Part shown: one piece after another, positions 11,426 to 27,253 of the stretch
How the letters are laid out: each line of letters begins with the position of its first letter
Position numbering within the stretch: position 1 is the stretch's first letter
Assembly: GCA_016869435.1 (NCBI GenBank)
Contig: VGEB01000017.1
Coordinates: 1-40,551, forward strand
DNA from: Alphaproteobacteria bacterium
GTDB lineage: Bacteria > Pseudomonadota > Alphaproteobacteria > Rhizobiales > Beijerinckiaceae
Length of the DNA: 40,551 nt
Direction of reading: 5' to 3'
The notes under the pieces: model-generated
Seen by the model: only the letters and a program-made list of their open reading frames with translations
What the model was told of the DNA's origin: nothing
Databases searched by the model: none
Position numbers and translations under genes: made by a program

Positions 11426-12330
11426 GGCAGCAAATCCTTCAGATGATAATGGAACGGACCGAGCTTGCCGCCGTAATTGCCGGCGCCGACGCGCCTGGCG
11501 CCCTGCTCCGGTCCCATCTCGATGATGGCGCGCAGACCTGCGCGCATCGCCTCGCGCACCGCGTTGTCGGTCAGCCCGTCGATGACGATTTCCAGCACGC
11601 AGCCGATATCGGCGTCGAGCGCGCTTTTGGTCACGCCGCGAAGCGTCGGACAATAGGCGTCGTTGGTCGAAGCGCTCATGCCCTTATATTGCGACCCGAC
11701 CTTCGAACCCGACCGCACGATGCCGCCGGGGAACGGCGCAATCGCGTCGGCGACGCCGTCGATCGCCGAGACCGCAGCCTCGGTGGCGTGCATGGTCTTG
11801 TCCCAATCCGCGCCCATGATCAAAAGATTGCCGCCGCCGACCGACTTTTTGGTCAGGCCAACCTTGCCTTCGCAGAAGAATTCTCCGTCCATCACCGGCA
11901 CGCGCCAGTAACGCCGGCCGTCCACGACCTTGGACATCTGCCATTTGTCGCCGAACTGGCGCACCGCGTCGCCGACCTTGATCTCGAATTCTCCCGCGAC
12001 GGTCGAATAGACCGCCGAGCCCGGGCAGGTCAGCACGCACTGGCCAAGCCGGTTGACGAGCTGTTTCTCGGCGTCCTTCGACGACATGGCGAAGAGCAGC
12101 ACGCGCACGCCGGGACGCCCGTCCGGCGTTTCTTGCGGCGGGACTTCGCGATCGATCCCCGCCTCGCAGCCGCAGCCGATGACCGACGTGGCGAAGCCCG
12201 TCATTGTCAGCCCGGCCTGCCGCGCCCATTTGGCGTTAGGCGCGGTGATCAGAATACCCGTCCCGCTCATCGGGAAGGCTTCAGCGAAATTGTCGTCGAT
12301 CGTTACGCCGTTGCGAACTATATCCGGCAT
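11422..12330 (-). CDS. fhcD: Formylmethanofuran:tetrahydromethanopterin formyltransferase (FhcD)
   Basis: A 302-residue homologue of archaeal Ftr. In the bacterial Fhc complex it moves the formyl group from tetrahydromethanopterin to the methanofuran-type cofactor bound by FhcA. Family signatures are the start IVRNGVTIDDNFAEAFPMSG, TGFATSVIGCGCEAGIDREV, VLTCPGSAVYSTVAG, and the C-terminal RVGAGNYGGKLGPFHYHLKD. The length is normal for Ftr (about 300). The 5' end overlaps fhcA by 13 bases and the 3' end overlaps fhcC by 4, so the complex subunits are tightly coupled. Confidence 0.97.
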   Translation of the reverse strand: MPDIVRNGVTIDDNFAEAFPMSGTGILITAPNAKWARQAGLTMTGFATSVIGCGCEAGIDREVPPQETPDGRPGVRVLLFAMSSKDAEKQLVNRLGQCVLTCPGSAVYSTVAGEFEIKVGDAVRQFGDKWQMSKVVDGRRYWRVPVMDGEFFCEGKVGLTKKSVGGGNLLIMGADWDKTMHATEAAVSAIDGVADAIAPFPGGIVRSGSKVGSQYKGMSASTNDAYCPTLRGVTKSALDADIGCVLEIVIDGLTDNAVREAMRAGLRAIIEMGPEQGARRVGAGNYGGKLGPFHYHLKDLLP

Positions 12331-13955: not shown

Positions 13956-15046
13956 GCGCCCTCCGAAACTTCCGCCATGATGGAGTCGATCGCCTGCGCG
14001 ACGCTCGGCGCGTCGGTCGGCGCGCTCGCTTTGCGCAGCGTCATACCGCCGGTTTCCTGACTCATCAGCACGGCGTCATGGGTAACGCCGGGCTGACCGA
14101 CTTCGATGAACAGCCCACGCGACGGCGCCGCCTGCGCCGGGGCGAGCGTCACGAGCGGAATATCGGCGCGGGACCAGCTCGGCTTCTCGCCGTCGAAGGC
14201 GGAAATCCACAGCGCCGCATCGGCCTCGCCGCTGTCGACGAGACGCGACGCCTCGAAACGCCACGGGTCGTGCTCCGGATAGCCGCGGCCAAAGCCCGTG
14301 CGCGGTGGAAAGCCCGTCATCCAGCCGGCGGCTTGCGTAACGCCGGAAGCGCCGCTGCGGGCGCCGATGTGAACGCCGGTGAAGCGCGTCGTGGCGTTGA
14401 GATCGATCACCAGACCCTGCATCATCTCGATCGCCAACGGATCAAGCGTCGACGCCGACCAGACGAATACGCCAAAGCGCGCGCTTCTTAAGGTCTCAAC
14501 GAAGCCATCGATGCGGCTGACTTTTTCAGCGTCAAACGCCACGGGCCGTCCGCCGAGTCGGGCGCGCCATGCCGCCAGCACGCCGCAAAGCTCATGTGCG
14601 GAAGCCGGGATGATTTTGGCGCCAGGGACGGCGCGCGCCTCCTCGCCCTCGGGTCCGACCCAGATCACCTTGCGCGGCTGTTCGGCCTGGGCGCCACGGC
14701 ATGGCGTCCGATCGAGCGCAAGCCGCTCAAGCATTCCGGGCCAGGCTTGCGTCAGCCCGGGACCGATAAGCACGACGCAGTCGCTACGAATGCGCGCTTC
14801 ATTCGCCGTCGTGGTGAACATGCCGAAGGAGCGCTTGACGTCGAGATCGGCAAGCATTTCGCGCGACGCCAGATGATCGAAGGCGCCCTTCAGCCGCTCG
14901 GCCAGGAGAATGGCGGCGCGCGCGCCGGCGATGTCGGCGCCGAGGCCGGCGATCAGCGGAAACGCCGCCGCATTTAGAATTTTCGCGGCGTGTCGATAGG
15001 CGTCGTCAAGCGCAATCGCCTTGCCGTCGAGCGTCGCTGTTCCCAT
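13946..15046 (-). CDS. fhcB: Formyltransferase/hydrolase complex subunit B (FhcB)
   Basis: A 366-residue relative of FmdB/FwdB, the molybdopterin subunit of archaeal formylmethanofuran dehydrogenase. The bacterial protein lacks the cysteine motif for an iron-sulfur cluster and the pterin-binding residues. This is the reason the Fhc complex acts as a hydrolase and not as a redox enzyme. Conserved fold pieces are FPLIAGLGADIAGARAAILL, CVVLIGPGLTQAWPGMLERL, FGVFVWSASTLDPLAIEMMQ and HIGARSGASGVTQAAGWMTG. It is the first gene of the minus-strand fhcBADC operon. The gene starts at ATG 15046 and the next gene upstream ends more than 400 bases away, so the operon promoter should lie in that gap. Confidence 0.95.
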   Translation of the reverse strand: MGTATLDGKAIALDDAYRHAAKILNAAAFPLIAGLGADIAGARAAILLAERLKGAFDHLASREMLADLDVKRSFGMFTTTANEARIRSDCVVLIGPGLTQAWPGMLERLALDRTPCRGAQAEQPRKVIWVGPEGEEARAVPGAKIIPASAHELCGVLAAWRARLGGRPVAFDAEKVSRIDGFVETLRSARFGVFVWSASTLDPLAIEMMQGLVIDLNATTRFTGVHIGARSGASGVTQAAGWMTGFPPRTGFGRGYPEHDPWRFEASRLVDSGEADAALWISAFDGEKPSWSRADIPLVTLAPAQAAPSRGLFIEVGQPGVTHDAVLMSQETGGMTLRKASAPTDAPSVAQAIDSIMAEVSEGAWR

Positions 15047-15458
15047 CCCTACCCCGATTTGCGACCTGTCCCGGCCAAGCTTAAAAGCGTATCGGCCAAT
15101 TAGCGCTATCCATTTGTTTTTTAGCGCCTACTCGCCGAGCCGGGCGGCTCCTCCCGCGTTTCGCTATGCCTAGCAGCCGTCACGTCGCCTGTCGAGACGT
15201 CGGGCTGCGGCATTTGCATCGCAGCTGCTGGCGAAAATCCGCAAGGGTCGACGAATGGTTGGGGCGCGGCGCGCGCCGGTCGTCCCGGCGCTTTGCCGGT
15301 CGCGAAGGGATTGCGCGTTGAAGCCAATTTTTTGCAGAGACTTCTGGGCCCAGACCCGGCGTCGTTCCGAAGACTTTCAGAAAACCCAAAGGCCCAGGAA
15401 ACCCCCGGGCCTTTGGCGTCGATGACGATTCGAGTGGCGAGCGGGCTCGCCCGTTGGG
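15047..15458. other. Intergenic region upstream of fhcB
   Basis: It is the expected site of the fhc operon promoter, but I could not define boxes with confidence. It contains a terminator hairpin at 15386-15416. Two overlapping minus-strand frames of about 68 codons (15121-15389) have proline- and arginine-rich products and no convincing ribosome-binding site. I treat them as non-coding, although a decayed gene is possible. Confidence 0.45.
15386..15416 (-). terminator. Terminator of the peptidoglycan-binding protein gene
   Basis: A 10-bp stem pairs CCAAAGGCCC (15386-15395) with GGGCCTTTGG (15407-15416) around an 11-base loop. On the minus strand it runs into GTTTTCTG. It lies about 40 bases past the stop codon of the minus-strand gene at 15459, which fits transcription termination of that gene and shields fhcB from read-through. 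Confidence 0.7.
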
Positions 15459-15914
15459 TCAGCTCTTCAGAGCCGCCCAGGTTCTGATTCCGACGACGCC
15501 GTCAACCAGTAACGGCTTGTTCTCGAAATCCTTATGCCCCTGCTGGAATGCTTTGACCGCAGCCTCGGTTTTTGAGCCGAAATCGCTGTCTATCGGGCCC
15601 GGGTCGGAGCCCGCCAGCTTGAGGAGTTCTTGGAGGAGTTTCACGGCCGGGCCGTGTGCGCCCTTCTTGAGCTGTTCGGGATCGAGCCTGAACCAGGTTT
15701 TCGGACCCACGACGCCGTCTACAGCTAAAGGAAACGACAACGTGAGGGGCTTCGGTGGGTGACGATCCGTTTGGTAGGCCTTGACCGCGGCCTCGGTCTT
15801 CTGACCGAAATCGCCGTCGATTGCGCCGGGATCGTAGCCTCGCTGCTTGAGACGCGTCTGAGCCAGTTTTACCGCGTCGCCATGAGACCCCTTTTTAATA
15901 GTCGGATGAGCCAT
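15459..15914 (-). CDS. Protein of two peptidoglycan-binding (PG_binding_1) repeats
   Basis: A 151-residue protein consisting almost wholly of two copies of the three-helix PG_binding_1 domain. Repeat 1 reads KKGSHGDAVKLAQTRLKQRG, with IDGDFGQKTEAAVKAYQ and VDGVVGPKTW. Repeat 2 reads KKGAHGPAVKLLQELLKLAG, with IDSDFGSKTEAAVKAFQ and VDGVVGIRTW. Such domains usually target a hydrolase to the cell wall, but no catalytic domain and no signal peptide are present here. The two copies are closely similar, suggesting internal duplication. ATAGGAGT lies before the ATG and a terminator follows, so it is a single-gene unit. How it reaches peptidoglycan, if it does, is unclear. Confidence 0.85.
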   Translation of the reverse strand: MAHPTIKKGSHGDAVKLAQTRLKQRGYDPGAIDGDFGQKTEAAVKAYQTDRHPPKPLTLSFPLAVDGVVGPKTWFRLDPEQLKKGAHGPAVKLLQELLKLAGSDPGPIDSDFGSKTEAAVKAFQQGHKDFENKPLLVDGVVGIRTWAALKS

Positions 15915-16136
15915 TGAATACTCCTATTATTAACGGCGGCGCTCTACGCGCCAAAAAAACACCTTCCAATGCGCCTACCTCGAGCAATAAAAGCGACGAA
16001 CAAAAAGTAGACGATGCAAGGCGCAAAAAATTATCTAATTTCGGTGACTTGGAAGTCAAGCCCTCGCCATGGCGGCAAGTTGCGCGCACCCCCATTTGCG
16101 CAGTGGCGATGATCATGATAAATGCTGCGCCGAGCT

Positions 16137-16166
16137 TAAACCTGTTGGCGCTATGCGCCATATAAT
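16137..16166 (+). promoter_or_regulatory. Putative promoter of pqqA
   Basis: A perfect -10 hexamer TATAAT lies at 16161-16166, 38 bases before the pqqA ATG. The only -35 candidate is the weak TAAACC/TTAAAC at 16136-16142 with an 18-19 base spacer, so an activator may be needed. The upstream 250 bases (15915-16136) hold no gene, are unusually AT-rich for this genome, and could contain operator sites. The ribosome-binding site GGAGGAAGAA directly precedes ATG 16205. Confidence 0.45.
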
Positions 16167-16204
16167 CAGGACAGAGCCGAAAAGAGTCCTAAACGGAGGA
16201 AGAA

Positions 16205-16282
16205 ATGGCCTGGACAACCCCCGTGATTGTCGAAGTTTGCGTCGGCATGGAAATCACCAGCTACGAGTCCGCCGAGATCTAA
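16205..16282 (+). CDS. pqqA: Coenzyme PQQ precursor peptide PqqA
   Basis: A 25-residue peptide whose end VCVGMEITSYESAEI is the hallmark of PqqA. Glu16 and Tyr20, in the ExxxY arrangement, are the residues that PqqE cross-links and that become the carbon and nitrogen skeleton of pyrroloquinoline quinone. A strong GGAGGAAGAA Shine-Dalgarno precedes the ATG. No pqqB, C, D or E follows; the next gene is a cytochrome c peroxidase after 160 bases. It is therefore an orphan or extra copy, as known in several methylotrophs. PQQ is the cofactor of methanol dehydrogenases, fitting the lanthanide genes nearby. Confidence 0.92.
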   Translation: MAWTTPVIVEVCVGMEITSYESAEI

Positions 16283-16441
16283 TATCGGCGCGGCCTTCGC
16301 TTCGGTGAAGGCGCCAAAGAATTCCCGAATCGAGCCGGCAGGAAGAGCGCAGCGCAAAGCGGTTGCGCTTTTCGAATCGCCGGCTCGAATCGCTTTGGCC
16401 TCGATCGGCGGCGCGGCCGGCCGCGAGCAGGAGGCGTCGAC

Positions 16442-17479
16442 TTGCGCTCGTCCTCTCTTTTCATCGCGTTTCCCTTCGTACTGTTCGCCGCGACGACCGG
16501 CCGAGCGGAAAGCCCGAACGCCAAGACGCTCCTTGACGACGCGAGGCGGCATTTCCAGCCGATCGCCGCTCCCGCCCCCGCCAATGATCCCGTGACGGCC
16601 GCACGCGTCGAACTCGGCCGGCGGCTGTTTTTCGAAAATCGCGTGTCAATGGACGGCAATGTCAGTTGCGGTCATTGCCATCCTGCGGACAAGCAGGCGA
16701 GCGACGGACTGCCGAAGGCGATTGGCGTCTTCGGCAAGGAGAATCCGCGCAATGCGCCGTCGATCTTCAACGCCGCGCTGAATTTCAAGCAGCATTGGCG
16801 CGGCGATCGCGAGTCTCTTGAAGAGCAGGCGGAAAAATCCTTGCTTGGCCCGGCAAGCTTCGGCAATCCCGATCAGGCGACCGCGATGAGCAAGCTCAAC
16901 GCGATTCCCGCCTATGCCGACGCCTTCGCCAAGGCGTTTCCCGGCGACAAGGATCCGATCAATTCGAAGAATTGGGGCGTCGCCGTCGGCGCCTTTGAGA
17001 GGACCTTGCTGACCCCCTCCAAATTCGACGCTTTCCTCGCCGGCGACGTCTCGGCGCTGTCGAAGCAGCAGCAGGCCGGGCTGCGCAAGTTCATCGATCT
17101 CGGTTGCGTCTCTTGCCACAATGGCGCAGGCGTCGGCGGCAATTCCTTCCAGAAATTTGGAGTCGCGAGCGACTATTGGAAGGAAACCGGCGTCGCGACG
17201 CCTGACAAGGGTCGCGCGGAGGTCACCAAGAACGACGCGGACCTTTATGTCTTCAAGGTCGCGAGCCTGCGCAACGTGGCGCGAACCGCGCCTTATTTTC
17301 ATGACGGGTCCGTCGACGATCTGACCAAAGCCGTAAAAATCATGGGCAAAACCCAGCTCGGACAAGATCTGTCAGATAGTGACGCAGCCGACATCGTCGC
17401 CTTTCTCGGCGCGCTGACCGGCGCCGCTCCCGCGAATTACGCGTCGCCGGAGCCCTTTCCGGACGCCCAAGAAAAGTAG
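16442..17479 (+). CDS. Diheme cytochrome c peroxidase / MauG-family protein
   Basis: A 345-residue periplasmic protein. Residues 1-22 form a signal peptide ending TTGRA. Two c-type haem sites are CGHCH (Cys76, Cys79, His80) and CVSCH (Cys222, Cys225, His226). Further family motifs are RRLFFENRVSMDGNVSCGHC, NAPSIFNAALNFKQHWRGD and VASLRNVARTAPYFHDGSV. Members reduce hydrogen peroxide with cytochrome c or, like MauG, build protein-derived cofactors; the sequence alone does not separate these. The start is TTG 16442, supported by AGGAGG 7 bases upstream and by the signal peptide. It follows pqqA on the same strand, so a link to PQQ-dependent oxidation is plausible. It converges with the response regulator 30 bases downstream. 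Confidence 0.9.
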   Translation: MRSSSLFIAFPFVLFAATTGRAESPNAKTLLDDARRHFQPIAAPAPANDPVTAARVELGRRLFFENRVSMDGNVSCGHCHPADKQASDGLPKAIGVFGKENPRNAPSIFNAALNFKQHWRGDRESLEEQAEKSLLGPASFGNPDQATAMSKLNAIPAYADAFAKAFPGDKDPINSKNWGVAVGAFERTLLTPSKFDAFLAGDVSALSKQQQAGLRKFIDLGCVSCHNGAGVGGNSFQKFGVASDYWKETGVATPDKGRAEVTKNDADLYVFKVASLRNVARTAPYFHDGSVDDLTKAVKIMGKTQLGQDLSDSDAADIVAFLGALTGAAPANYASPEPFPDAQEK

Positions 17480-17508
17480 GACTGCCCTCTTCTGGAGGGG
17501 GCGTGCGC

Positions 17509-18126
17509 TTACAACTTGTGTTCCAGCGCGATGCGCATCAGCTCCATCGGCGTGCGGGCGCCGAGCTTGCGCTTCATGATCGAGCAGCTGTTGGCGATCG
17601 TCTTATAGGAGACCTGAGTGGCGTCGGCGATCTCCGCCATGCCGAGCCCGCGTCCCAGCATTCGCAAAATCTCCAATTCTCGCGCGGTCAGCGCAGAGAG
17701 TGGGCTGGCGGCGGCGCCGCTTTTCTCGAACGCCAGTCGATTGGCGATTTTAGGCATGAGAAACACGCCGCCCGAAGCGACTTCGCGCACCGCCTTCAGC
17801 AACAGATATGGGTCGTCGTTCTTGGTCACATAAGCCTTGGCGCCCATCTGAATCGCCCGCGCCGCGAAGATCGGATCATCGTTCATGCTGAAAACGACGA
17901 TGCGCGCGGCCGGATCGGTTTCCAGAATCCGCCGCGTCAGCTCGAAGCCGGAAACGCCGGGCAAGCCGATATCGACGACCGTCACGTCCGGCTTTTCCGC
18001 CGTGAAGGCGGCGAGACCGGTCTCCGCGTCGCGCGCGTCGACGACGTCGATGTCGCCTTCGCCGGCAAGCATCGCCGCGCAGCCGGAAACGATGATCGGA
18101 TGGTCGTCAACGATGAGAACGCGCAT
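17509..18126 (-). CDS. NarL/LuxR-type response regulator
   Basis: A 205-residue DNA-binding regulator. The receiver domain begins MRVLIVDDHPIIVSG, has phosphoacceptor Asp52 in VVDIGLPGVSGFELT, and the conserved lysine in GAKAYVTKND. The C-terminal LuxR helix-turn-helix reads LTARELEILRMLGRGLGMAE followed by IADATQVSYKTIANSCS. ATG 18126 is chosen because it gives the canonical receiver start; the frame extends 35 codons further without support. It is divergent from the histidine kinase with 104 bases between. Regulators of this class (AgmR/ExaE, FlhR, MoxX, PedR2) control PQQ alcohol dehydrogenase genes in other bacteria, so control of the surrounding PQQ/lanthanide genes is a reasonable inference. 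Confidence 0.9.
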   Translation of the reverse strand: MRVLIVDDHPIIVSGCAAMLAGEGDIDVVDARDAETGLAAFTAEKPDVTVVDIGLPGVSGFELTRRILETDPAARIVVFSMNDDPIFAARAIQMGAKAYVTKNDDPYLLLKAVREVASGGVFLMPKIANRLAFEKSGAAASPLSALTARELEILRMLGRGLGMAEIADATQVSYKTIANSCSIMKRKLGARTPMELMRIALEHKL

Positions 18127-18230
18127 ATTCGAATTGGCTCCACGCATTGAGGCCTGCAGAACGGGCGGCCGTGACATTGACGGCATCCGGACCTTTCGTA
18201 AAGTCGCCCGCTTCTCTAAAGAAATGGCCA

Positions 18231-19559
18231 ATGCTTCGAAGGCTCTCCCTGCGCGTTCGCCTGTCGCTGCTGCTCGGCGTCGTGCTTGCGGTGGGACTGG
18301 CGCTCGGCGTCGGCCTGCTCATCTTGCATGCCGGCGCGCGCGTTCGCGCCGAGGCCGATGGTGCGACGCGACTGGCGCGGGAGCTGGTTGAAGCGAATCT
18401 GCCGCGGCTCGACGCGGCGCCCGAACCACAGGTCGAGATCGCGCGACTTCTCGCCGAGGCGCAGCGGCTGCGTCATGTCCGCGTCGCGCTCGCCGGAGAG
18501 GAGACGCCCGCCACGGAGAAAGACGACCGCGCGCCGCAGTGGTTCACGCGGCTCGTGTTGCCGAACGCCGCCGCCACGCGGATCGAAACCGGCCACGGCG
18601 CGATCCTGATCTCCCCCAATCCCGCGGATGAGATCGCCGAGATTTGGCAGGAAATCGTCTGGCTCGCGATCGGCGGCGCCGGGATCGCGGTCGCCGCCTT
18701 CGGGCTTGTGTCGTTCGCCGTGTCGCGAACGCTGCGTCCGATCGCGACTCTCGCGGACGGCCTGCGGCGTTTGGAGCGCGGCGAACACTTGGTGCGCGTT
18801 CCCGCCGACGGCTCGCCTGAATTCATCATCATCGCGGAACGCATCAATGCGCTGGCCGCAACGCTGCAACAGCTCGACGAGGAAAATCGTCGGCTTGTGC
18901 GGCGCATGATCCATGTGCAGGACGAAGAGCGCAAAGGCATCGCGCGCGACCTGCATGACGAGATTGGTCCCTTCCTGTTCACTGTCCGCGCGGGCGTGGG
19001 CGCCTTGGCGCGCCGCGCGGCGGGTCCAGGCGCTGACGCGGCGCGTCTTGCGGATGATTGCGCGCGCATCGATGCGCAGATCGCCGCCTTGCAGCAGGTC
19101 AACAGACGCATTCTCGGGCGATTGCGTCCCGCCGCTCTCGAAGAGATGGGCCTTGCCGACGCCTTGCAGGCGCTGGCGCAGGGCTGGCGCGAGGCGAACC
19201 CCGGGGTCGATATCGCGCTTTCGCTCGACGGCGCCTCCGGCGATCTAGAAGAGGAAACCGCGCTCACCGCCTATCGCATCGTGCAGGAGGGCCTCGCCAA
19301 CGCGCTGCGACATTCGGGCGCCGATCGAGTGGAGGCGATCATCGAGCGCGCTAAGGGCGTCTTGCATATCGTCGTGAGGGATAACGGGAGCGGGCTCGAC
19401 GCGACGCGCAGCCCGGCGAGCGGCGGCCTCGGATTACGCGGCATGAGTGAGAGAGTGGGCGCGCTGGGCGGCGCACTCATGCTGACGAACGACGTGGAAG
19501 GCGGCGCGCGGCTGACCGCGTCGCTGCCTCTGCGCATTAGCGGCGCGGCGAATCGCTAA
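18231..19559 (+). CDS. HisKA_3-type sensor histidine kinase
   Basis: A 442-residue inner-membrane sensor. Transmembrane helices lie at about 10-32 and 143-165 and enclose a periplasmic sensing region of about 110 residues. A HAMP linker follows (about 166-218). The dimerisation and phosphoacceptor segment is DEERKGIARDLHDEIGPFLF with His242. The ATPase domain has the N-box region EEGLANALRHS-like stretch, DNGSGLDATR and GGLGLRGMSERV. This architecture pairs with NarL-type regulators, and the divergent neighbour is one. ATG 18231 starts right before the basic residues and first helix; a longer frame from 18147 covers the promoter gap. The sensed signal is unknown; the periplasmic domain could read a methanol- or metal-linked cue. 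Confidence 0.9.
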   Translation: MLRRLSLRVRLSLLLGVVLAVGLALGVGLLILHAGARVRAEADGATRLARELVEANLPRLDAAPEPQVEIARLLAEAQRLRHVRVALAGEETPATEKDDRAPQWFTRLVLPNAAATRIETGHGAILISPNPADEIAEIWQEIVWLAIGGAGIAVAAFGLVSFAVSRTLRPIATLADGLRRLERGEHLVRVPADGSPEFIIIAERINALAATLQQLDEENRRLVRRMIHVQDEERKGIARDLHDEIGPFLFTVRAGVGALARRAAGPGADAARLADDCARIDAQIAALQQVNRRILGRLRPAALEEMGLADALQALAQGWREANPGVDIALSLDGASGDLEEETALTAYRIVQEGLANALRHSGADRVEAIIERAKGVLHIVVRDNGSGLDATRSPASGGLGLRGMSERVGALGGALMLTNDVEGGARLTASLPLRISGAANR

Positions 19560-19918
19560 GCCGCAATCCAGGCGCGCGCCTCATCGGCTTGCGACGTTGG
19601 AAACAGCTTCATCTCGCCGGGGGTTATGAAGCTGAAGAGCTGCGTCGCGTGCTTGATCCACTCGACGTCGGTGACAAGCGCAATTCGCTCCCAGCGCGTG
19701 AGATGTCCCATTCCGACCTTAAAATCCTCGAACATCGCGCCGGGATCGAATCCTGAGAAGTCGGGCGCGATCTCGTAATAGATCCTGACTTTTTCGTGTT
19801 TCTTGAGCGCGTTCTCGACCGCCGAAACGAGGACGGAGTCGTAATCCGCCTTGGTGACGCACCCTCTGCAGACGATCGCGACGACATTATCGGGGAAGTT
19901 CGACAGTTGCTCAATCAA
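19556..19918 (-). CDS. SpoIIAA-like (STAS-related) protein
   Basis: A protein of about 120 residues of the SpoIIAA-like/DUF3478 family, seen in the pattern LSNFPDNVVAIVCRGCVTKADYD, IYYEIAPDFSGFDPGAMFED, and WERIALVTDVEWIKHATQLF. Members have a STAS-like fold, and their role is poorly known; some bind lipids or act in regulation. TTG 19918 is the preferred start because GAGGAGA stands just before it. An ATG at 19966 would add 16 residues without a ribosome-binding site. It converges with the kinase gene, the two overlapping by four bases, and is divergent from the DUF1614 gene. Confidence 0.8.
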   Translation of the reverse strand: MIEQLSNFPDNVVAIVCRGCVTKADYDSVLVSAVENALKKHEKVRIYYEIAPDFSGFDPGAMFEDFKVGMGHLTRWERIALVTDVEWIKHATQLFSFITPGEMKLFPTSQADEARAWIAA

Positions 19919-20050
19919 AGGCGTTCTCCTCAATGCTTGATGACGCGCCAGTGAAGGCCCCGTCATAGCGTTTTTCGTTGGACTGCATCTCGCTCGCCGG
20001 TCCCCTATATGGGGCTGCAGCGCTCGATAATGCGCCCGGGGAGGCGATGC

Positions 20051-20782
20051 GTGTATTCACATCAGCTTCACTATCTTCCGCTGCCGCCAATCGTCTACGC
20101 GATCTTGATTGGCGCGCTGCTGGTGGTCTTCGTATTGATACAGATCGGCGCGCTCAGCTACGCCTACGGCCGCATCGGCCTGAGCTCCAAATATGCGACG
20201 CTCACGCTGCTCGCTTCCCTTCTAGGCAGCTACATCAACATTCCGGTCGCGCATTTCGCCGGAGAGCACGTGGTCCCGCAGGAAGTAATCGACTTTTTCG
20301 GAAGGCGCTATGTCGTTCCGATGGTCGTCGATTGGCCGGGGATGATACTGGCGGTAAATGTCGGCGGCGCCGTCATTCCGTTTTTCCTGTCGTTGTATCT
20401 GCTTGCCCGCAATCGCATTTGGATCGTCGGCGCCGTGGCGACCGCGATTGTCGCTTTGGTCGTCCATCTCTTCGCGCGGATCGTGCCCGGCGTCGGCATC
20501 AGCGTTCCCATCGTCGCGCCGCCGCTGCTCTCGGCGGCTCTGGCGCTCGTGCTGTCCCGCGACCATGCTGCGCCGGTCGCCTATGTTAGCGGCAGCCTCG
20601 GCACGCTCATCGGCGCGGATCTGCTCAATCTCGGTAGGATTCAGGAGATCGGGACGCCGCTCGTGTCATTTGGCGGCGCGGGAACATTCGACGGCATATT
20701 CGTCACCGGAATTCTTGCCGTGCTGATCGCGAGCCTGCCCCTGCGCAGGAATCCTTCCGGCGTTTCGCCTGCGCCGCCGTAG
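20051..20782 (+). CDS. DUF1614 integral membrane protein
   Basis: A 243-residue protein with six to seven predicted membrane segments, for example PPIVYAILIGALLVVFVLIQ, WPGMILAVNVGGAVIPFFLS and IVAPPLLSAALALVLS. The glycine-rich motifs AVNVGGAVIPFF, PIVAPPLLSA and YVSGSLGTLIGADLLNL are those of DUF1614, whose function is unknown. The start is GTG 20051 with GGGGAGG upstream; an in-frame ATG at 20009 has no such site. The gene ends 70 bases before lanM on the same strand, so it may share a transcript with lanM or carry its promoter in the gap. A membrane protein directly before lanmodulin deserves attention as a possible transport component. Confidence 0.85.
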   Translation: MYSHQLHYLPLPPIVYAILIGALLVVFVLIQIGALSYAYGRIGLSSKYATLTLLASLLGSYINIPVAHFAGEHVVPQEVIDFFGRRYVVPMVVDWPGMILAVNVGGAVIPFFLSLYLLARNRIWIVGAVATAIVALVVHLFARIVPGVGISVPIVAPPLLSAALALVLSRDHAAPVAYVSGSLGTLIGADLLNLGRIQEIGTPLVSFGGAGTFDGIFVTGILAVLIASLPLRRNPSGVSPAPP

Positions 20783-20852
20783 TCCGGCCCTAGCAGGTTG
20801 GACGGCGCCCGCGCTATATTAGCTGCGATGACCATATTCAGAGGAGTCGCAA

Positions 20853-21254
20853 ATGAACAAGACATTGCTGCTCGGCGCGTTGGCGCTTGCCGGCGTCATG
20901 GCGGTGCCGGCGACGTCCGCGCTCGCGAAGGCGACCGGGCCTGTCGCTGCGCTCGACACCGACAATGACGGCACCGTCGACCTCAACGAAATCAACAAAT
21001 CCGCCAGTGGCCTGTTTACGCGCCTCGAGAAGGACTCGGACGGCACCGTCGACGTGAAAGAGATGAAGGGGCGCGTCTCGAAGAAGGATTTCAAGACCGC
21101 CGACCCGGACAACGACGGCACGCTCTCGAAGGATGAGTTTCTCGCCATGGTCGCTGGCATGTTCAAGGATGCGGATCCCGACAATGACGGAACGCTCGAC
21201 GCCAAGGAGCTTGCCTCCAAGAAGGGCAAGGCGCTTCTGCGCGTGACCATGTGA
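20853..21254 (+). CDS. lanM: Lanmodulin-like periplasmic EF-hand protein
   Basis: A 133-residue protein with a signal peptide (residues 1-25, ending SALA) and four EF-hand loops: EF1 D35-E46, EF2 E59-E70, EF3 D84-E95, EF4 D108-E119. The spacing between loops is 12, 13 and 12 residues, as I recall it for lanmodulin and much shorter than in calmodulin. The stretch KEMKGRVSKKDFKTADPDND and the end DAKELASKKGKALL also follow lanmodulin. The hallmark proline at loop position 2 is kept only in EF3 and EF4; EF1 has Thr and EF2 has Lys, with Glu instead of Asp at position 1. EF3 has Ser at position 9. Lanmodulin binds lanthanides with picomolar affinity in the periplasm. AGAGGAG precedes the ATG. Confidence 0.88.
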   Translation: MNKTLLLGALALAGVMAVPATSALAKATGPVAALDTDNDGTVDLNEINKSASGLFTRLEKDSDGTVDVKEMKGRVSKKDFKTADPDNDGTLSKDEFLAMVAGMFKDADPDNDGTLDAKELASKKGKALLRVTM

Positions 21255-21320
21255 TGGCCGAAGGCGCGCGGGAGCGCCGGCGAACTTGATCCCGCGCGCC
21301 AAAGCGGCCATTTAGGCGAC

Positions 21321-22499
21321 ATGAAAAGCTTGGTCGCCGCTTTCTGTATGCTGCTCCTCGCTGCGCCGGTCGCGGCTGAAACGTTAAGCGTCAAAATCGG
21401 CGTTCTGCGCGAAACGCATTCGCGCGAGACCCTCTCGATTCTCGATATTCCCGCCGCCGACGATACGCTCGCCGGCGCCCTGCTCGGCGCGGCCGACAAC
21501 AACACCACAGGCAAATTCACCAATCAGACCTTCGAGGCGATCGACGCCAGGCTTGAGGAAGGCGACGATGTCGTCGCGGCCCTCGACGCGCTTTTTGAGA
21601 AGGGCGCGCTTTTCATTATCGCCGACCTCTCGCCCGAACGCCTGCTCGCGGCCTCCGAACGCGCCAGACCGAGGGGCGCGCTGCTCTTGAACGTCTCCGC
21701 GACCGACGACAGGCTGCGCGAAGAGGACTGTCGCGCCAATGTCATCCACGTTGCGCCGACGCGCTCGATGCTCGCGGACGGTCTGGCGCAATATCTCGTC
21801 TGGAAACAGTGGCGACGCTGGCTGCTGATCAAGGGATCGCATCCAAACGACGAGTTCCTGGCGCAGGCCTTGCGCAACAGCGCCAGGAAATTCGGCGCGA
21901 AGATCGTCGAAGAGCGCATTTATGAAGACACCGGGGGCGGACGGCGCAGCGACTCCGGCTCGGTGCAAACGCAGCGGCAGATCCCGACGCTGACGCAGAA
22001 CGCGCCCGCCTATGACGCCCTCATCGCCGCCGACGAGAGCGACGTCTTCGGCGGCTATCTGCCATACCGCACCTGGGATCCACGCCCCGTCGCCGGCTCT
22101 GCCGGGCTGATGCCGACGAATTGGGATCCGGCGCACGAACAATGGGGCGCGCTTCAATTGCAGAACCGCTTCATTCAGACGTTCAGACGTTTGATGAACG
22201 CCCGCGACAATGCGGCGTGGCTTGCTATGCGGATGATCGGCGAAGCCGCAACGCGCGCCGCTTCGAACGATCCCGAAAAGCTGCGCCTCTACATGCTCGG
22301 CCAGGACTTCTCCATCGCCGCATTCAAAGGCGTCCGGCTGACGCTGCGGCTATGGAACCTGCAGTTGCGCCAGCCGATCCTGCTTTCCGACGGACGGATG
22401 GTTGTCTCGGTTTCGCCGCAGGAAGGCTTCCTCCATCAAGTCAGCGAACTCGACACGCTGGGAGTCGACCAGCCGGAGACGAAATGCAAACTGAAATGA
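21321..22499 (+). CDS. lutA: ABC transporter substrate-binding protein of PQQ/lanthanide clusters (LutA/PedA1-type)
   Basis: A 392-residue periplasmic protein with a signal peptide (1-19, ending APVAA). The fold is that of type I periplasmic binding proteins (leucine-binding-like): VKIGVLRETHSRETLSILDI, ALFIIADLSPERLLAASERA, RWLLIKGSHPNDEFLAQALR. The family is known from PQQ-dependent alcohol oxidation clusters and corresponds to lutA of Methylorubrum and PedA1 of Pseudomonas putida, both tied to lanthanide uptake. It lies 66 bases after lanM and overlaps the next gene by an ATGA junction. The assignment to the family is firm; the lanthanide role is inferred from the neighbouring lanM and from the named homologues. 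Confidence 0.85.
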   Translation: MKSLVAAFCMLLLAAPVAAETLSVKIGVLRETHSRETLSILDIPAADDTLAGALLGAADNNTTGKFTNQTFEAIDARLEEGDDVVAALDALFEKGALFIIADLSPERLLAASERARPRGALLLNVSATDDRLREEDCRANVIHVAPTRSMLADGLAQYLVWKQWRRWLLIKGSHPNDEFLAQALRNSARKFGAKIVEERIYEDTGGGRRSDSGSVQTQRQIPTLTQNAPAYDALIAADESDVFGGYLPYRTWDPRPVAGSAGLMPTNWDPAHEQWGALQLQNRFIQTFRRLMNARDNAAWLAMRMIGEAATRAASNDPEKLRLYMLGQDFSIAAFKGVRLTLRLWNLQLRQPILLSDGRMVVSVSPQEGFLHQVSELDTLGVDQPETKCKLK

Positions 22500-23623
22500 A
22501 GCGTGCCTCCACCTCGACACTGAGATGCTGCAGACTCGGCCTTGCCTTGCTGCTTGCTCGCTTTGCGCGTCATGGCCGGGCTTGTCCCGGCCATCCACGC
22601 GTGAGTCCCAACGGCATGGATGCGCGCGACAAGCGCGGGCATGACGCAAGTTACGCAATTATCATGACAATGTCCGCCTTGCTTTGCTCTATGTTCTCTT
22701 TGACGCCCGCTCACGCCTACAAGGCCTATGTCAGCAATGAAAAGGGTAATTCCATCACTGTCATCGACACCGACAAGCTCGAAGCGACGGCGACCATGAG
22801 AGTCGGGCGGCGCCCGCGCGGAATCGAGCTTAACAAGGACGGCTCCGAACTTTACATCTGCGCCGGCGACGACGACGCGATTCAGGTGCTTGACACGAAG
22901 ACTCTCAAAGTAACCGGAAAGCTGCCGTCCGGCCCCGATCCCGAGCTTCTGGCGCTCAGCCCCAGCGGCGACGTGATCTATGTCTCCAACGAAAACGACA
23001 ATCTCGTCACGCTCATCGACGTGAAGAAGAAGGAAATGATCGGCGACATTCCGGTCGGCGTCGAACCGGAAGGCATGGCCGTCAGCCCCGACGGCAGGTT
23101 GCTGGTCAACACGTCGGAGACCACCAATATGGCGCATCTCATAGACACGCAGTCGAAAGAGATCGTCGCCAATATTCTCGTCGATGGAAGGCCGCGCTTC
23201 GCCGAATTCAAGAAGGACGGCTCCGAGCTTTGGGTGTCGTCGGAAGTCGGCGGGACGGTCGCGATCATCGATCCGGTGAAACGCGAATTGAAGCAGAAGA
23301 TCAGCTTCGACATTCCGGCGATGTCGAAGGAAGCCATTCAGCCGATCGGCATATCGATCACCCGCGACGGAAAGCGGGCCTTTGTCGCGCTTGGGCCCGC
23401 CAATCGCGTCGCGGTGATCGACGCCGAAACCAAGAAAGTCGAGAAATATCTGCTCGTCGGACAGCGCGTCTGGCATCTCGCCTTCACGCCCGACGAAAAA
23501 TTTCTGCTCACCGCCAATGGCGTCTCCAACGACGTTTCGGTGATCGACGTTGCGTCTTTGAAAGTGCTGAAGTCGATTCCGGTCGGCGCTTTTCCCTGGG
23601 GCGTTGTTGTGGGGCCGCAATGA
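22496..23623 (+). CDS. YVTN beta-propeller protein of the PQQ/lanthanide ABC cluster (PedA2-type)
   Basis: Residues 75-375 form about seven YVTN/NHL-like blades, each with the pattern ITVIDTDKLEATATMRVGRR and PRGIELNKDGSELYI. Such propellers accompany the ABC genes of PQQ alcohol oxidation clusters and act in the periplasm. ATG 22496 overlaps the lutA stop as ATGA and begins a hydrophobic signal-like segment (CCRLGLALLLARFA). An 81-base interspersed repeat (22567-22647, 27 codons) then interrupts this segment, and the sequence resumes with SALLCSMFSLTPAHA, a normal cleavage region. Translation from ATG 22496 would make a signal peptide of about 74 residues with charged residues inside. An internal ATG at 22664 gives a short one of 18. 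Which start is used is not settled. Confidence 0.85.
   Translation: MKRASTSTLRCCRLGLALLLARFARHGRACPGHPRVSPNGMDARDKRGHDASYAIIMTMSALLCSMFSLTPAHAYKAYVSNEKGNSITVIDTDKLEATATMRVGRRPRGIELNKDGSELYICAGDDDAIQVLDTKTLKVTGKLPSGPDPELLALSPSGDVIYVSNENDNLVTLIDVKKKEMIGDIPVGVEPEGMAVSPDGRLLVNTSETTNMAHLIDTQSKEIVANILVDGRPRFAEFKKDGSELWVSSEVGGTVAIIDPVKRELKQKISFDIPAMSKEAIQPIGISITRDGKRAFVALGPANRVAVIDAETKKVEKYLLVGQRVWHLAFTPDEKFLLTANGVSNDVSVIDVASLKVLKSIPVGAFPWGVVVGPQ
22567..22647. repeat. Interspersed palindromic repeat inside the propeller gene
   Basis: The element begins GCGTCATGGCCGGGCTTGTC and ends GCGACAAGCGCGGGCATGAC, an imperfect long inverted repeat widespread in Hyphomicrobiales. It is exactly 81 bases as delimited, so the reading frame stays open through it. 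A related, longer copy lies at 33764-33893. Confidence 0.75.
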
Positions 23624-23640
23624 GTGTGAGTCTTAACGCC

Positions 23641-23749
23641 TGTCATTCCCGACGCGCGAAGCGCGATCGGGAATCCAGAGCCACGATCGGCGCTGTTGGC
23701 CGCGGCTCTGGATTCCCGGTTTTTCGCTTCGCGAATGCTGGTAATGACA
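23641..23749. repeat. Interspersed palindromic repeat between propeller and ATPase genes
   Basis: The element starts TGTCATTCCCGACGCGCGAA and ends with AATGCTGGTAATGACA, giving outer inverted ends TGTCATT/AATGACA. Inside, AATCCAGAGCC and GGCTCTGGATTCCC pair. It fills most of the 145-base gap after the propeller gene. A second copy stands at 24539-24638. Confidence 0.8.
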
Positions 23750-23768
23750 ACCCTGTCGGAGCGCCGCA

Positions 23769-24515
23769 ATGACCGCCGCGCTCGCGATCAGAAACGTCAG
23801 CCATTCCTATGGCGCGCGCAAAGCACTCGACGACGTGAGCTTCTACGTTTCTCCGGGCAGTTTCACCGTTCTTCTCGGCCTCAACGGCGCCGGCAAGAGC
23901 ACGCTGTTCTCGCTGATCACAAGGCTTTACGCGGCGCGCCACGGCGAGATCGATATTTTCGGCCATAATGTCATGCGCAAACCAGGCGCCGCGCTGCGCC
24001 AGCTTGGCGTCGTCTTTCAGGCGCGCACGCTCGATCTTGAATTGAGCGTGATGCAGAATCTTATCTACCACGCCGCCTTGCATGGCATCGGCCCGTTCGA
24101 GGCGCACCGACTCGGACAGGCGGCGCTGGCCCGCGCCGGACTTGCTGATCGCGCGAAGGACAAGGCCCGCTCCCTGTCCGGGGGACAGATGCGCCGCGTC
24201 GAAATCGCCCGCGCATTGCTGCATGATCCGCGTCTGCTGCTGCTCGACGAGCCGACAGTCGGACTCGACATCAAGGGGCGCGCAGATCTCCTCGCGCTTG
24301 TTCGCGATCTGGTGCAGGAAAAGAGTCTCGGCGTCTTGTGGGCGACGCATCTCATCGACGAGATCGCCGACGGCGATCAGGTGGTCATCCTGCATCACGG
24401 AAAGGTGCTCGCGACCGACAGCGCGCAAACGATCGTCGCCGAGCAAGGCGCAGCGAATATTGGAGGCGCCTTCACACGTATCACCGGCGCCGGCCAGGAG
24501 AAGCTGTCGGCATGA
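23769..24515 (+). CDS. lutE: ABC transporter ATP-binding protein (LutE/PedB-type)
   Basis: A 248-residue ABC ATPase. The Walker A motif GLNGAGKST is at residues 37-45, followed by the Q-loop region GVVFQARTLDLELSVMQNL, the signature SLSGGQMRRVEIARALL, Walker B RLLLLDEPTVGLD and the switch histidine in WATHLIDEIADGD. It belongs to the DrrA-like exporter class paired with ABC-2 permeases and is the family partner of the LutA-like protein in PQQ gene clusters. It is separated from both neighbours by inserted repeats, yet all genes stay on the same strand. In Methylorubrum the corresponding lutE is needed for lanthanide-dependent growth; the equivalence here rests on gene order and family. Confidence 0.88.
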   Translation: MTAALAIRNVSHSYGARKALDDVSFYVSPGSFTVLLGLNGAGKSTLFSLITRLYAARHGEIDIFGHNVMRKPGAALRQLGVVFQARTLDLELSVMQNLIYHAALHGIGPFEAHRLGQAALARAGLADRAKDKARSLSGGQMRRVEIARALLHDPRLLLLDEPTVGLDIKGRADLLALVRDLVQEKSLGVLWATHLIDEIADGDQVVILHHGKVLATDSAQTIVAEQGAANIGGAFTRITGAGQEKLSA

Positions 24516-24538
24516 GCGCGCGTGTCCTGCTCCGCATA

Positions 24539-24638
24539 TGTCATTCCCGACGGGCCGAAGGCCTGATCGGGAATCCAGCAGGGCGGCAGCCAATCATTGG
24601 GTTCCCGATCGCGCGCGATGCGCGCGTCGGGAATGACA
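24539..24638. repeat. Interspersed palindromic repeat between ATPase and permease genes
   Basis: It has the same outer ends as the copy at 23641-23749 (TGTCATTCCCGACG at the left, CGTCGGGAATGACA at the right) with a diverged centre. It lies between the ATPase stop and the ribosome-binding site of the permease and could form a long hairpin in the mRNA. Confidence 0.8.
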
Positions 24639-24665
24639 GTTGCGCTTTCAAAGGAGCGGGCGCCG

Positions 24666-25508
24666 ATGACTGACGCCGCAGCTCCCATAGGCGACATAAA
24701 AGGTTTCACCCTTCGCCAATATCTCATCTGCCTCTCGGGCGTCGTCTGGCGCGAGGGCTTGCGCTTCCTGCATCAGCGCGAACGCTTCGTCTCGGCGCTG
24801 GTGCGCCCGCTCGTCTGGCTCTTCATCTTCGCCGCGGGATTTCGGCAGGTGCTCGGCATCTCGATCATCCCGCCTTACGAAACCTACGTGCTCTATGAAG
24901 TCTATATCGCGCCCGGTCTGATGGCGATGATCCAGCTGTTCAACGGCATGCAGTCATCGCTCTCGATGGTCTATGACCGCGAGATGGGCAATATGCGCAC
25001 GCTGCTCGTCTCGCCCTTCCCGCGCTGGTTTCTGCTCGGCTCCAAACTTCTCGCCGGCGTCGCCATCTCGATTCTGCAGGTCTACGCCTTCCTGCTCATC
25101 GCCTATTTCTGGGAGATCGAGCCGCCGACGACATGGGGTTATCTGACCGTGCTGCCGGCGCTCGCGCTCAGCGGATTGATGCTCGGCGCGCTCGGGATGC
25201 TGCTGTCGTCGCTGATCAAGCAGCTCGAAAATTTCGCCGGCGTGATGAACTTCGTGATCTTTCCGATGTTCTTCGCCTCTTCCGCGCTCTATCCGTTATG
25301 GCGCGTCAAGGAGTCGAGCCCCTGGCTGTATTACGTTTGCGAAGTCAATCCGTTCACCCATGCGGTCGAACTGATCCGTTTCGCCTTCTATGAGAAAGTC
25401 GCGTGGACGTCGCTCGCGATCGTCTTCGCCTGCACGAGCGCGTTCCTTGTCGCCGCGATTCTCGCTTACGACCCGGCGCGCGGCATGCTGATGCGAAGGG
25501 GCGGTTAA
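24666..25508 (+). CDS. lutF: ABC-2 type permease (LutF/PedC-type)
   Basis: A 280-residue inner-membrane protein with six hydrophobic segments, such as ALVRPLVWLFIFAAGFRQVL, LLAGVAISILQVYAFLLIAY and TVLPALALSGLMLGALGMLL. It follows the DrrB/ABC-2 pattern: MVYDREMGNMRTLLVSPFPR after the second segment and VNPFTHAVELIRFA near the end. ATG 24666 has AAAGGAGC upstream; a longer frame from 24597 is only the translated repeat. Together with the ATPase it forms the membrane part of the Lut/PedA1A2BC-type system. ABC-2 permeases are usually exporters, so the direction of transport is not obvious from the fold. Confidence 0.88.
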   Translation: MTDAAAPIGDIKGFTLRQYLICLSGVVWREGLRFLHQRERFVSALVRPLVWLFIFAAGFRQVLGISIIPPYETYVLYEVYIAPGLMAMIQLFNGMQSSLSMVYDREMGNMRTLLVSPFPRWFLLGSKLLAGVAISILQVYAFLLIAYFWEIEPPTTWGYLTVLPALALSGLMLGALGMLLSSLIKQLENFAGVMNFVIFPMFFASSALYPLWRVKESSPWLYYVCEVNPFTHAVELIRFAFYEKVAWTSLAIVFACTSAFLVAAILAYDPARGMLMRRGG

Positions 25509-25514
25509 GAGGCG

Positions 25515-25715
25515 TCAGCGCCGGCGATAATGGTAGTGGCGCGTATCGTGACGATGTGAGCGACCTTCAGGACAATTGCCGTAGCAGTCCCAGCGCCCGT
25601 GCCGCGCGCCATGCTTGAACCACTCGGCCTGTCCTTCGGTCCAGGGACTTGCCGTAACGGCATGCGGCGGGAGGAGCATCGCCAGAACGATTATCATCGT
25701 GGTCAGTTTCGACAT
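25515..25715 (-). CDS. Small exported histidine-rich protein
   Basis: A 66-residue protein. The first 22 residues form a signal peptide (MSKLTTMIIVLAMLLPPHAV, cleavage after TA/S). The mature part of about 44 residues has one cysteine pair (DCYGNCPEG) and ends in a basic, histidine-rich tail SHRHDTRHYHYRRR. Histidine clusters of this type may bind metal ions. I recognise no family. It converges with the permease gene, with six bases between the stops. The next minus-strand gene upstream, at 25748-26668, is 32 bases away and might be its operon partner. Confidence 0.6.
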   Translation of the reverse strand: MSKLTTMIIVLAMLLPPHAVTASPWTEGQAEWFKHGARHGRWDCYGNCPEGRSHRHDTRHYHYRRR

Positions 25716-25747
25716 TGCGCGCCTCCGCCCAAATGTTTCCTCTCGCG

Positions 25748-26668
25748 CTATTTCTTCACGTCCTTCTTGGCGTTCTCAGCCGCGAGTTCTTCGGCGACCC
25801 CCGGCGGCAATTTGACGCCAGCGGCGAGCTGGGCGCCGAGCGCGATCGCCCGCGCCTCCGTCAAGCGCAACGCGCAATAGCCGAAATCCGGCTCGCGCGC
25901 ATAGGAGCGGCACACTTCCTCGCGCCAGGAGGAGAAGCCCGCCTGCTCCTTGACGAGGTAGTTGCGGATCGGTTTTTCCTTCTTGTTGCGCTCGTAGAGC
26001 TCGCGAAACGTATTGCGAACCGTCTTTTCGACGCGCGCGCGGGCGCCCAGCATTTCTTCGCCCTTCTTCGGGTCGATTTCGTCGGCGCCCATCCCCCAAA
26101 GCCCTTCCGGATCGGCGCGGCACCCGGCTTCCTTTAGTTCGCAGGCCTTGCCCTCATTGGTGACGAGGATCGCGCCGTCAAGAACGGTGAAGGAAAAGGG
26201 ACAGGCGGGAAAGGCCACCTGATAGCGGCGCAGGCCGGTGTCGCTCTCACGCGCCGAGAGCTTCAAAGGCGTTCCCGCGACCTCGACTCGGCAGGTTTCC
26301 CCGGAACGCCTCAAATCGTCGCCGACGAGCGTGAGTTTTGCGACCTGCAAAATTGCGCCGGCGCGAGAGAACTCGATGGCGCTCCCCTCGCCGTCGAGCT
26401 TGAGGGTCTTTCCGACGATCGCGTCTTCGGCAGGCGCCTTCGGCATGATCGCGGGCCCAGCGGCCGCGCCCATCTCGCCACCGCCGGCGCTTTTGTTCTT
26501 GGCGGCGCCGGCGACCGTCCCCTCGGGGCTGGGAGCCACCGCTCCTGGGAGCACAATCTGTGCGCTCGCGGAGACGCCGCCGATCGCGATGAGCGCCGCC
26601 GCCCCGAATACGCGGGCGCGGCGCGCACCTGGAGTCCGAAACCCAGATTCAAACATGGCGATCGCCAT
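25748..26668 (-). CDS. Exported protein of unknown function
   Basis: About 306 residues. A signal sequence follows a short basic N-terminus (VFGAAALIAIGGVSASA, cleavage near residue 36). A low-complexity Ala/Gly/Pro linker spans about 37-80. A beta-rich middle part (KTLKLDGEGSAIEFSRAGAI to ACELKEAGCRADPEGLWGMG) includes several cysteines. The C-terminal part is helical, with EEMLGARARVEKTVRNTFRE and YAREPDFGYCALRLTEARAI. The last segment loosely recalls proteins with LprI-like Cys-containing repeats, but I cannot assign a family. It lies just downstream of infC (46 bases) on the same strand and upstream of the small His-rich gene. Confidence 0.7.
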   Translation of the reverse strand: MAIAMFESGFRTPGARRARVFGAAALIAIGGVSASAQIVLPGAVAPSPEGTVAGAAKNKSAGGGEMGAAAGPAIMPKAPAEDAIVGKTLKLDGEGSAIEFSRAGAILQVAKLTLVGDDLRRSGETCRVEVAGTPLKLSARESDTGLRRYQVAFPACPFSFTVLDGAILVTNEGKACELKEAGCRADPEGLWGMGADEIDPKKGEEMLGARARVEKTVRNTFRELYERNKKEKPIRNYLVKEQAGFSSWREEVCRSYAREPDFGYCALRLTEARAIALGAQLAAGVKLPPGVAEELAAENAKKDVKK

Positions 26669-26713
26669 CCCCCCGGCTGCAGACCGGCCCCTGCCTTCGC
26701 GGCGAGGCGCGCG

Positions 26714-27253
26714 CTATCGAGGCGCGAGCACCATCACCATCTGCCGTCCTTCCATGGACGGTTCGAGTTCGACCTTGGCCAGCGTGGCCGTTTCCGCTTT
26801 TACGCGCGACAGAAGTCGATAGCCGATGTCCTGATGCGCGATTTCGCGGCCGCGAAAGCGAAGGGTGACCTTCACCTTGTCGCCTTCTTCGAAGAAGCGG
26901 CGGACCGCCTTCATTTTCACGTCGTAATCGTGGTCGTCGATGCCGGGCCGAAGCTTGATCTCCTTAACCTCGACGACCTTCTGCTTTTTGCGGGCCTCGG
27001 CGGCCTTTTTCTGCTCGGCGAAGCGGAAACGCCCGTAATCCAGAATTTTGCAGACGGGGGGAGTGGAATTTGGCGCGATTTCGACGAGATCGAGCCCCGC
27101 CGTCTCGGCCATGGCCAGCGCCTCCGGCAATTGGACGACGCCGTGATTTTTCCCCTCGGAATCGATTAGCTGCACTTCTCGCGCGCGAATTTCCCGGTTG
27201 ATGCGCGGCCCTTCCTTCTGGGGGGCTGCGACGCTCTTCATTGGACGGCGAAT
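26714..27253 (-). CDS. infC: Translation initiation factor IF-3 with probable AUU start
   Basis: A protein of 179 residues with both IF-3 domains. N-terminal domain: [40 protein letters not shown] and [19 protein letters not shown]; the C-terminal domain is [20 protein letters not shown] followed by [22 protein letters not shown]-3 keeps 30S subunits free and checks the start codon. I place the start at ATT 27253 because AAGGAG lies 7 bases upstream of it. The nearest ATG, four codons further in, is then 19 bases from that site. An AUU start is the known autoregulatory feature of infC in enteric bacteria, since IF-3 rejects non-standard starts. rpmI-rplT do not follow. Confidence 0.93.

Follow-up and report, generated by a model that had tools for sequence, protein, structure and literature searches.

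What brings the precursor peptide of pyrroloquinoline quinone (PQQ), a diheme peroxidase and a two-component sensor pair next to the genes for lanthanide binding and uptake? The question is raised by positions 16205-25715 of contig VGEB01000017.1, a stretch of 40,551 nt (the window) from a genome of 3.16 Mb in 209 contigs (G000) that groups by kinship with Methylocystis; its nearest lanM loci are titled Methylocystis and include those of M. rosea SV97 (L123) and M. suflitae NLS-7 (L117). The first-pass annotation had listed here pqqA, the peroxidase, a response regulator (RR) and histidine kinase (HK), a SpoIIAA-like gene, a DUF1614 gene, lanM and lutABEF, and we found all of them at 16205-25508 (Table 1). 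The end point of 25715 takes in a small His-rich open reading frame (ORF) that does not belong to lut. The description as a PQQ/lanthanide block also holds: lanM and the four lut genes score above curated cut-offs, with lutA, lutB, lutE and lutF passing in this order the four curated NCBI models of a PQQ-linked ATP-binding cassette (ABC) system, pqqA is present, and the gene order is kept in the genus. We consider it probable that the stretch is a Methylocystis lanthanide-uptake locus combined with genes for PQQ and signalling and regulated by the sensor pair within it.

For comparison we used 39 Methylocystis genomes, 297 genomes of the order and a set of named lanM loci (the best 80 of 330 relatives found), and 46 stretches around lanM were retrieved from within and outside the genus (G-numbers denote genomes, L-numbers loci). 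In the genus lanM matches occur in 36 of 39 genomes, and in 29 of the 39 there is one locus, the window included, in which lanM adjoins lutA and the block kinase is present wherever the contig extends far enough. The order pqqA-peroxidase-RR/HK-lanM-lutA is uninterrupted in 24 of these 29 block loci, again with the window among them, and such a recurrence is more than chance; the loci of G011, G028 and G032 are truncated by contig ends. Conservation of the order in relatives, on which the first-pass annotation had let its proposal depend, was therefore found in most block loci. The block kinase itself is present at ≥65% identity in 29 of 39 genomes, with PqqA at ≤4 kb in 25 of the 29 (two contigs are cut, two are absences), and of 56 loci searched for lutF, 35 have it at 79-95% identity.

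Four further genomes carry the block kinase at 56-62% identity. G002 and G012 read pqqA-peroxidase-HK-lutABEF, with lanM, the LutH-like TonB receptor and the regulator not detected in place, G033 reads lut-TonB-HK/RR without lanM, and in the stretch from G034 the kinase alone was seen. Both lanM (G002, G012, G033) and the TonB receptor (G002, G012) may hence be lacking where the kinase still adjoins lut. A basal position of G002 and G012 was considered and dropped, as the lutA+lutB tree does not place them so. lanM is found in other settings in G002, G006, G007, G012, G024, G027 and G034; that of G006 (L047) adjoins lutABEF, with the kinase absent there. With block-type loci in 29 of 39 genomes and lanM elsewhere in others, the block is widespread in Methylocystis without being universal.

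The regulator and kinase genes are divergent, and the genome of the window holds a paralogous pair on contig C2, next to mxa-type genes and a second pqqA. The two copies are 44% (kinase) and 55% (regulator) identical. An mxa-linked kinase (39-44% identity) was found in 26 genus genomes, with an mxaF-like gene at ≤15 kb in 25 and pqqA at ≤600 bp in 23 of them (these counts and those of PqqA near the block kinase were tallied by hand from tables, and xoxF- and mxaF-like names were assigned from context). On plasmid pSS37A-Re-1 of M. iwaonis the methanol dehydrogenase genes, RR/HK and pqqA are consecutive. In trees the block and mxa kinases fall in separate clades, and because the block kinase lies outside the mxa-linked (MxaY) clade we file it as a paralogue only. 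Among the NCBIfam models the window regulator scores 122.9 bits with MctR and 65.9 bits with ErdR (NF041830, cut-off 390), all below cut-off; an ErdR/ExaE assignment, PedR2-like if ErdR stands for PedR2 as we assume, was rejected on the latter score. Some mxa-type settings are more compact: in G024, G006 and G031:C4 (L089, L090, L091) an mxaF-like gene, sensor pair, pqqA, lanM and TonB receptor lie within one 20 kb locus, the lanM match of G031:C4 being split in two, and in G008 (L103) a further pair of the mxa-linked clade is located near a xoxF-like gene. In L014 and L021 (G035, G036) the block kinase appears with an in-frame insert of ~100 nt near residue 340.

To avoid a bias from choosing loci by lanM, we searched the regulator across the 297 order genomes and assigned its distance to lutA, among the lutA matches listed, leaving out the window and G009 (both Methylocystis). 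All nine regulators with ≥56% identity lie at ≤2 kb from lutA. At 36-44% identity, 4 of 74 are within 5 kb and 12 of 74 within 12 kb of a listed lutA. Five of the nine loci, which belong to family f36, were retrieved; all five are arranged lutFEBA-RR/HK (divergent)-TonB and two continue to xoxF within the retrieved stretch. In Methylosinus sp. Ce-a6 the order is HK/RR-lanM-lutABEF. The paralogue at the mxa operon and the lutA linkage in a second family bear out the earlier assignment of the pair to the class that controls PQQ dehydrogenases.

The same comparisons allow another reading, in which the block pair is a second MxaYB regulator of methanol dehydrogenase, placed here by chance and acting on mxaF/xoxF promoters instead of uptake. 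In the best tree the block and mxa kinases are sisters (87/86 support, not starred), the corresponding grouping of the regulators is not rejected by the approximately unbiased (AU) test (p-AU 0.43), both pairs adjoin a pqqA, and both kinases have in common an acidic run ahead of the second membrane helix. However, the block pair stays by lut across the genus, in another family all nine genomes have the same regulator type by lutA, and the two kinases form separate clades. We regard an MxaYB copy as rather doubtful.

Several results weigh against a lanthanide-uptake locus under the control of its own sensor pair. The blocks of G020 and G031 are without pqqA and peroxidase. Regulators with 45-55% identity are mostly not adjacent to a listed lutA (1 of 16 at ≤5 kb, 3 of 16 at ≤12 kb), and all nine regulators with ≥56% identity come from the one family f36 and are therefore not nine independent cases. 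With the LapD_MoxY_N model the block kinase reaches 15.5 bits (cut-off 25), against 25.7 for the mxa-linked paralogue. As to the branching order, AU tests without the rows nested in the f36 clade rejected a grouping of block and f36 (p 0.0005 for regulators, 0.016 for kinases), but with the full f36 clade neither grouping was rejected (p 0.10-0.40); the groups were redefined after the trees were seen, and we claim no branching order for the block, mxa and f36 lineages. Reports on relatives weigh against it too: lanthanide is reported to raise LanM 26- to 39-fold and to lower LutBAH homologues three- to fivefold in Methylocella silvestris (PMC9291206), and in Methylosinus trichosporium a LutH-like receptor was reported lowered, with LanM not quantifiable (PMC12482762). 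These opposite responses in Methylocella, together with the receptor drop in Methylosinus, make a shared response of lut and lanM doubtful.

Both the opposite responses in Methylocella and the blocks without pqqA in G020 and G031 would also fit a mere neighbourhood of methylotrophy genes (fhc, pqqA, lut) with no shared control, as would the presence of genes on both strands and the about equal stability of the flanks on the fhc and IF3 sides. The recurrence of the same core, RR/HK-TonB-lut, in another family argues otherwise, and we think a mere neighbourhood improbable.

For a locus regulated by its own pair, the steps that we infer for the organism of the window would be the following. A LutH-like TonB receptor, here encoded on another contig, would bring lanthanide into the periplasm, where LanM would buffer it, and LutA/LutB together with the LutEF ABC pair would carry it across the inner membrane. 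The divergent kinase may use its periplasmic domain to sense periplasmic lanthanide, directly or indirectly, and together with the response regulator would set the expression of lut and lanM, possibly in differing directions, and perhaps that of the adjacent pqqA too. The peroxidase would remove H2O2 using electrons of c-type cytochromes, and the SpoIIAA-like and DUF1614 genes would be passengers acquired in one subclade. Candidate sensing residues are D133, E134, E137 and E141, an acidic run right before the second membrane helix that is kept in ≥95% of 22 block kinases; a similar run is present in eight mxa-linked kinases and one Gemmobacter kinase examined, and it may thus serve the whole kinase family.

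The lanthanide-uptake genes are of a known kind and stand in a conserved arrangement, and the sensor pair, which appears to be a constant member of the block, is a strong candidate for its regulator. More tentatively, it is possible that Methylocystis has two cofactor modules in parallel, one at the mxa operon (calcium) and one at lanM/lut (lanthanide), and that each has a pqqA and an MxaYB-type pair to itself; the block pair would then be devoted to sensing the supply of lanthanide and be distinct from MxaYB, with kin that run lut-TonB-xoxF loci in Bradyrhizobium-like bacteria. For lanthanide sensing in alphaproteobacterial methanotrophs the second, lut-linked pair offers a single gene pair to target. 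A lut-linked sensor pair may already be in print in the literature on Bradyrhizobium, xoxF and lanthanides.

The LutH-like TonB receptor is located directly before lanM in 20 of 29 block loci and is about 800 aa long where measured, with a long form in G008. It is absent from eight blocks (the window, G011, G017, G026, G029, G031, G035 and G036), and G032 is not scorable since its contig starts at lanM. In the genome of the window a relative with 60% identity and a length of 1160 aa is encoded on contig C28 (7078-10560, L057), about 15 kb from a xoxF-like PQQ dehydrogenase gene. This receptor has ~350 extra C-terminal residues past the barrel, with a resemblance to the Omp25 type (OMP_b-brl 21.9 bits, below the cut-off of 28.7). 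Long receptors with a similar extension were noted in G002, G026, G036, G031, G008 and L170, that of G035 ends at 816 aa, and relatives of the extension, many in frames of ~300 aa, are found in 45 of 119 family genomes. In the predicted structure of the long receptor from L170 the receptor part scores 70-84 in places and the C-terminal extension about 20-37.

The SpoIIAA-like and DUF1614 genes had been put forward as new parts of lanthanide handling. Both stand immediately before lanM in the window, and DUF1614 is retained in 15 of the 17 judgeable loci of the window's subclade (18 rows in the lutA+lutB tree; L015 and L017 are without it, L024 is cut), which favours such a role and counts against mere passengers. 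Yet these 15 are the only ones of the 29 block loci with DUF1614 inside, both genes are absent from the blocks of other genus loci, and G026, G029 (64% complete) and G032, among the nearest relatives of the window, gave no DUF1614 match at all. In 13 other genus genomes a near-full DUF1614 copy lies elsewhere, and the 11-12 kb retrieved around each contain neither lut nor pqqA. Of the order genomes, 8 of 297 have DUF1614 (7 over cut-off) and only that of the window adjoins a listed lutA; among the 80 named lanM loci it is present in 11, all Methylocystis or close kin. The SpoIIAA-like gene is covered to ≥70% in 11 of 29 block loci including the window, with a fragment in G029. Minimum changes on the lutA+lutB tree are 4 for DUF1614, 5 for SpoIIAA-like, 5 for TonB and 2 for lanM, with G032 scored as without the first three and the G029 fragment scored as SpoIIAA-like present. 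An AlphaFold2 model of DUF1614 from 12 close sequences has a mean pLDDT (predicted local distance difference test) of 40, and the one literature library searched held no paper on DUF1614, alone or with lanmodulin. A part of either gene in lanthanide handling is in our view very unlikely; both look like local passengers limited to one subclade, and the comparison makes them poor candidates.

The lanmodulin aligns without gaps to the solved structure 6mi5 over about 100 aa and has four EF loops spaced as in Mex-LanM, DTDNDGTVDLNE, EKDSDGTVDVKE, DPDNDGTLSKDE and DPDNDGTLDAKE. A proline at loop position 2 is a hallmark of lanmodulins such as Mex-LanM; here it is present only in EF3 and EF4, with T in EF1 and K in EF2, and position 1 of EF2 is E. 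By its sequence the peroxidase belongs to the classical bacterial cytochrome c peroxidases (BCCPs): its best solved relative is the BCCP 6qkn (E 6.5e-80 over 302 aa, near full length). A MauG/MbnH identity was rejected, as TIGR03791 (136 of 444 bits) and TIGR04039 (180 of 363 bits) both fall short of cut-off and the best MauG chain gives E 3.6e-15 versus 6.5e-80 for 6qkn.

Table 1. Genes of the block and its flanks, with positions in the window.
Feature	Position	Strand	Evidence
fhcBADC-like genes (formyltransferase/hydrolase complex), conserved upstream neighbours	10616-15046	-	ORFs
pqqA, PQQ precursor peptide (25 aa)	16205-16282	+	PF08042 34.2 bits, cut-off 21.1
Diheme BCCP, probably exported	16442-17479	+	PF03150 151.8 bits; two CxxCH motifs
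NarL/LuxR-type response regulator	17509-18126	-	Response_reg + GerE; mxa-linked paralogue
Histidine kinase, HisKA_3, likely periplasmic domain, HAMP	18231-19559	+	HAMP 22 bits, slightly below cut-off 25
SpoIIAA-like protein	19556-19924	-	PF11964 97 bits
DUF1614 membrane protein	20009-20782	+	PF07758 186.6 bits
lanM, lanmodulin	20853-21254	+	NF053806 161.8 bits, cut-off 135
lutA / pedA1-type periplasmic binding protein	21321-22499	+	TIGR03863 464 bits, cut-off 413.6
lutB / pedA2-type beta-propeller (start codon a choice, 22664 or 22670)	22664-23623	+	TIGR03866 508.7 bits, cut-off 287.3
lutE / pedB-type ABC ATPase	23769-24515	+	TIGR03864 328 bits, cut-off 302
lutF / pedC-type ABC-2 permease	24666-25508	+	TIGR03861 399.9 bits, cut-off 241
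His-rich ORF of 66 aa, start resembling a signal peptide	25515-25715	-	outside lut

The names of the fhc genes are our presumption from the sequence, made without a family search. Between fhc and pqqA, 15459-15914 encodes a protein matching peptidoglycan-binding domains. Of the 28 other block loci in the genus, 6 have a match to the His-rich ORF downstream of lutF; beyond this ORF follow an uncharacterised ORF with no Pfam match and a gene that we take to be IF3-like. Palindromic repeats (TCATTCCCGA...) occupy 23640-23718 in the lutB/lutE gap and 24533-24644 in the lutE/lutF gap. An Rfam scan over 15000-26800 gave no match at gathering score.

The combination of genes had seemed unusual to the first-pass annotation. 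Within Methylocystis it is common, and the claim stands with respect to Methylobacterium: none of 31 titled lanM loci has lutA, pqqA (by motif) or a sensor pair in the stretches covered, which reach up to 10 kb to either side of lanM and are shorter in some cases. A lutB match was found in L155 alone. In several loci from Bradyrhizobium, a PqqA-like motif lies at ≤1.5 kb from lanM. As M. extorquens is reported to have lanM with the lut genes (PMC7391723), the Methylobacterium loci may represent additional copies of lanM or be arranged differently.

Among the known systems, the lut cluster of Methylorubrum extorquens AM1 is alike in having lanM with lutA, lutB, lutE and lutF (PMC7391723), and the TonB receptor is shared by 20 of 29 Methylocystis loci; the comparison covers these six genes. 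The Methylocystis block adds pqqA, the peroxidase and the sensor pair, and in the window it is without the TonB receptor. The lut genes are reported to be required for lanthanide transport (PMC7391723), and roles for the Lut proteins and the TonB receptor are described there and in PMC12482762. In other bacteria the lanthanide switch is reported to be under control of MxaY or PedS2/PedR2 (PMC5018670, PMC6115532). The ped cluster of Pseudomonas putida resembles the block in that pedA1A2BC, the same four kinds of ABC-system genes, stand beside a kinase and a LuxR-type regulator, pedS2/pedR2 (PMC12997753, PMC6115532). It differs in that no lanM is seen in the examined parts of its gene table and in that the periplasmic region of PedS2 is reported to be different from LapD/MoxY, and the window regulator scores nearer to MctR than to ErdR. 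For Methylocella, MxaY has been suggested to control the lanthanide switch, mxaY is described as the only gene yet predicted to regulate methanol dehydrogenases, and the kinase/regulator pair is called MxaYB, an arrangement said to occur in Methylocystis as well (PMC9291206). This MxaY/MxaB pair, which Methylocella, Methylosinus and Methylocystis have at their mxa clusters, is paralogous to the block pair and in Methylocystis likewise consists of divergent genes with pqqA near, whereas the block pair adjoins lanM and lut and is 44% (kinase) and 55% (regulator) identical to the mxa-linked copy in the genome of the window.

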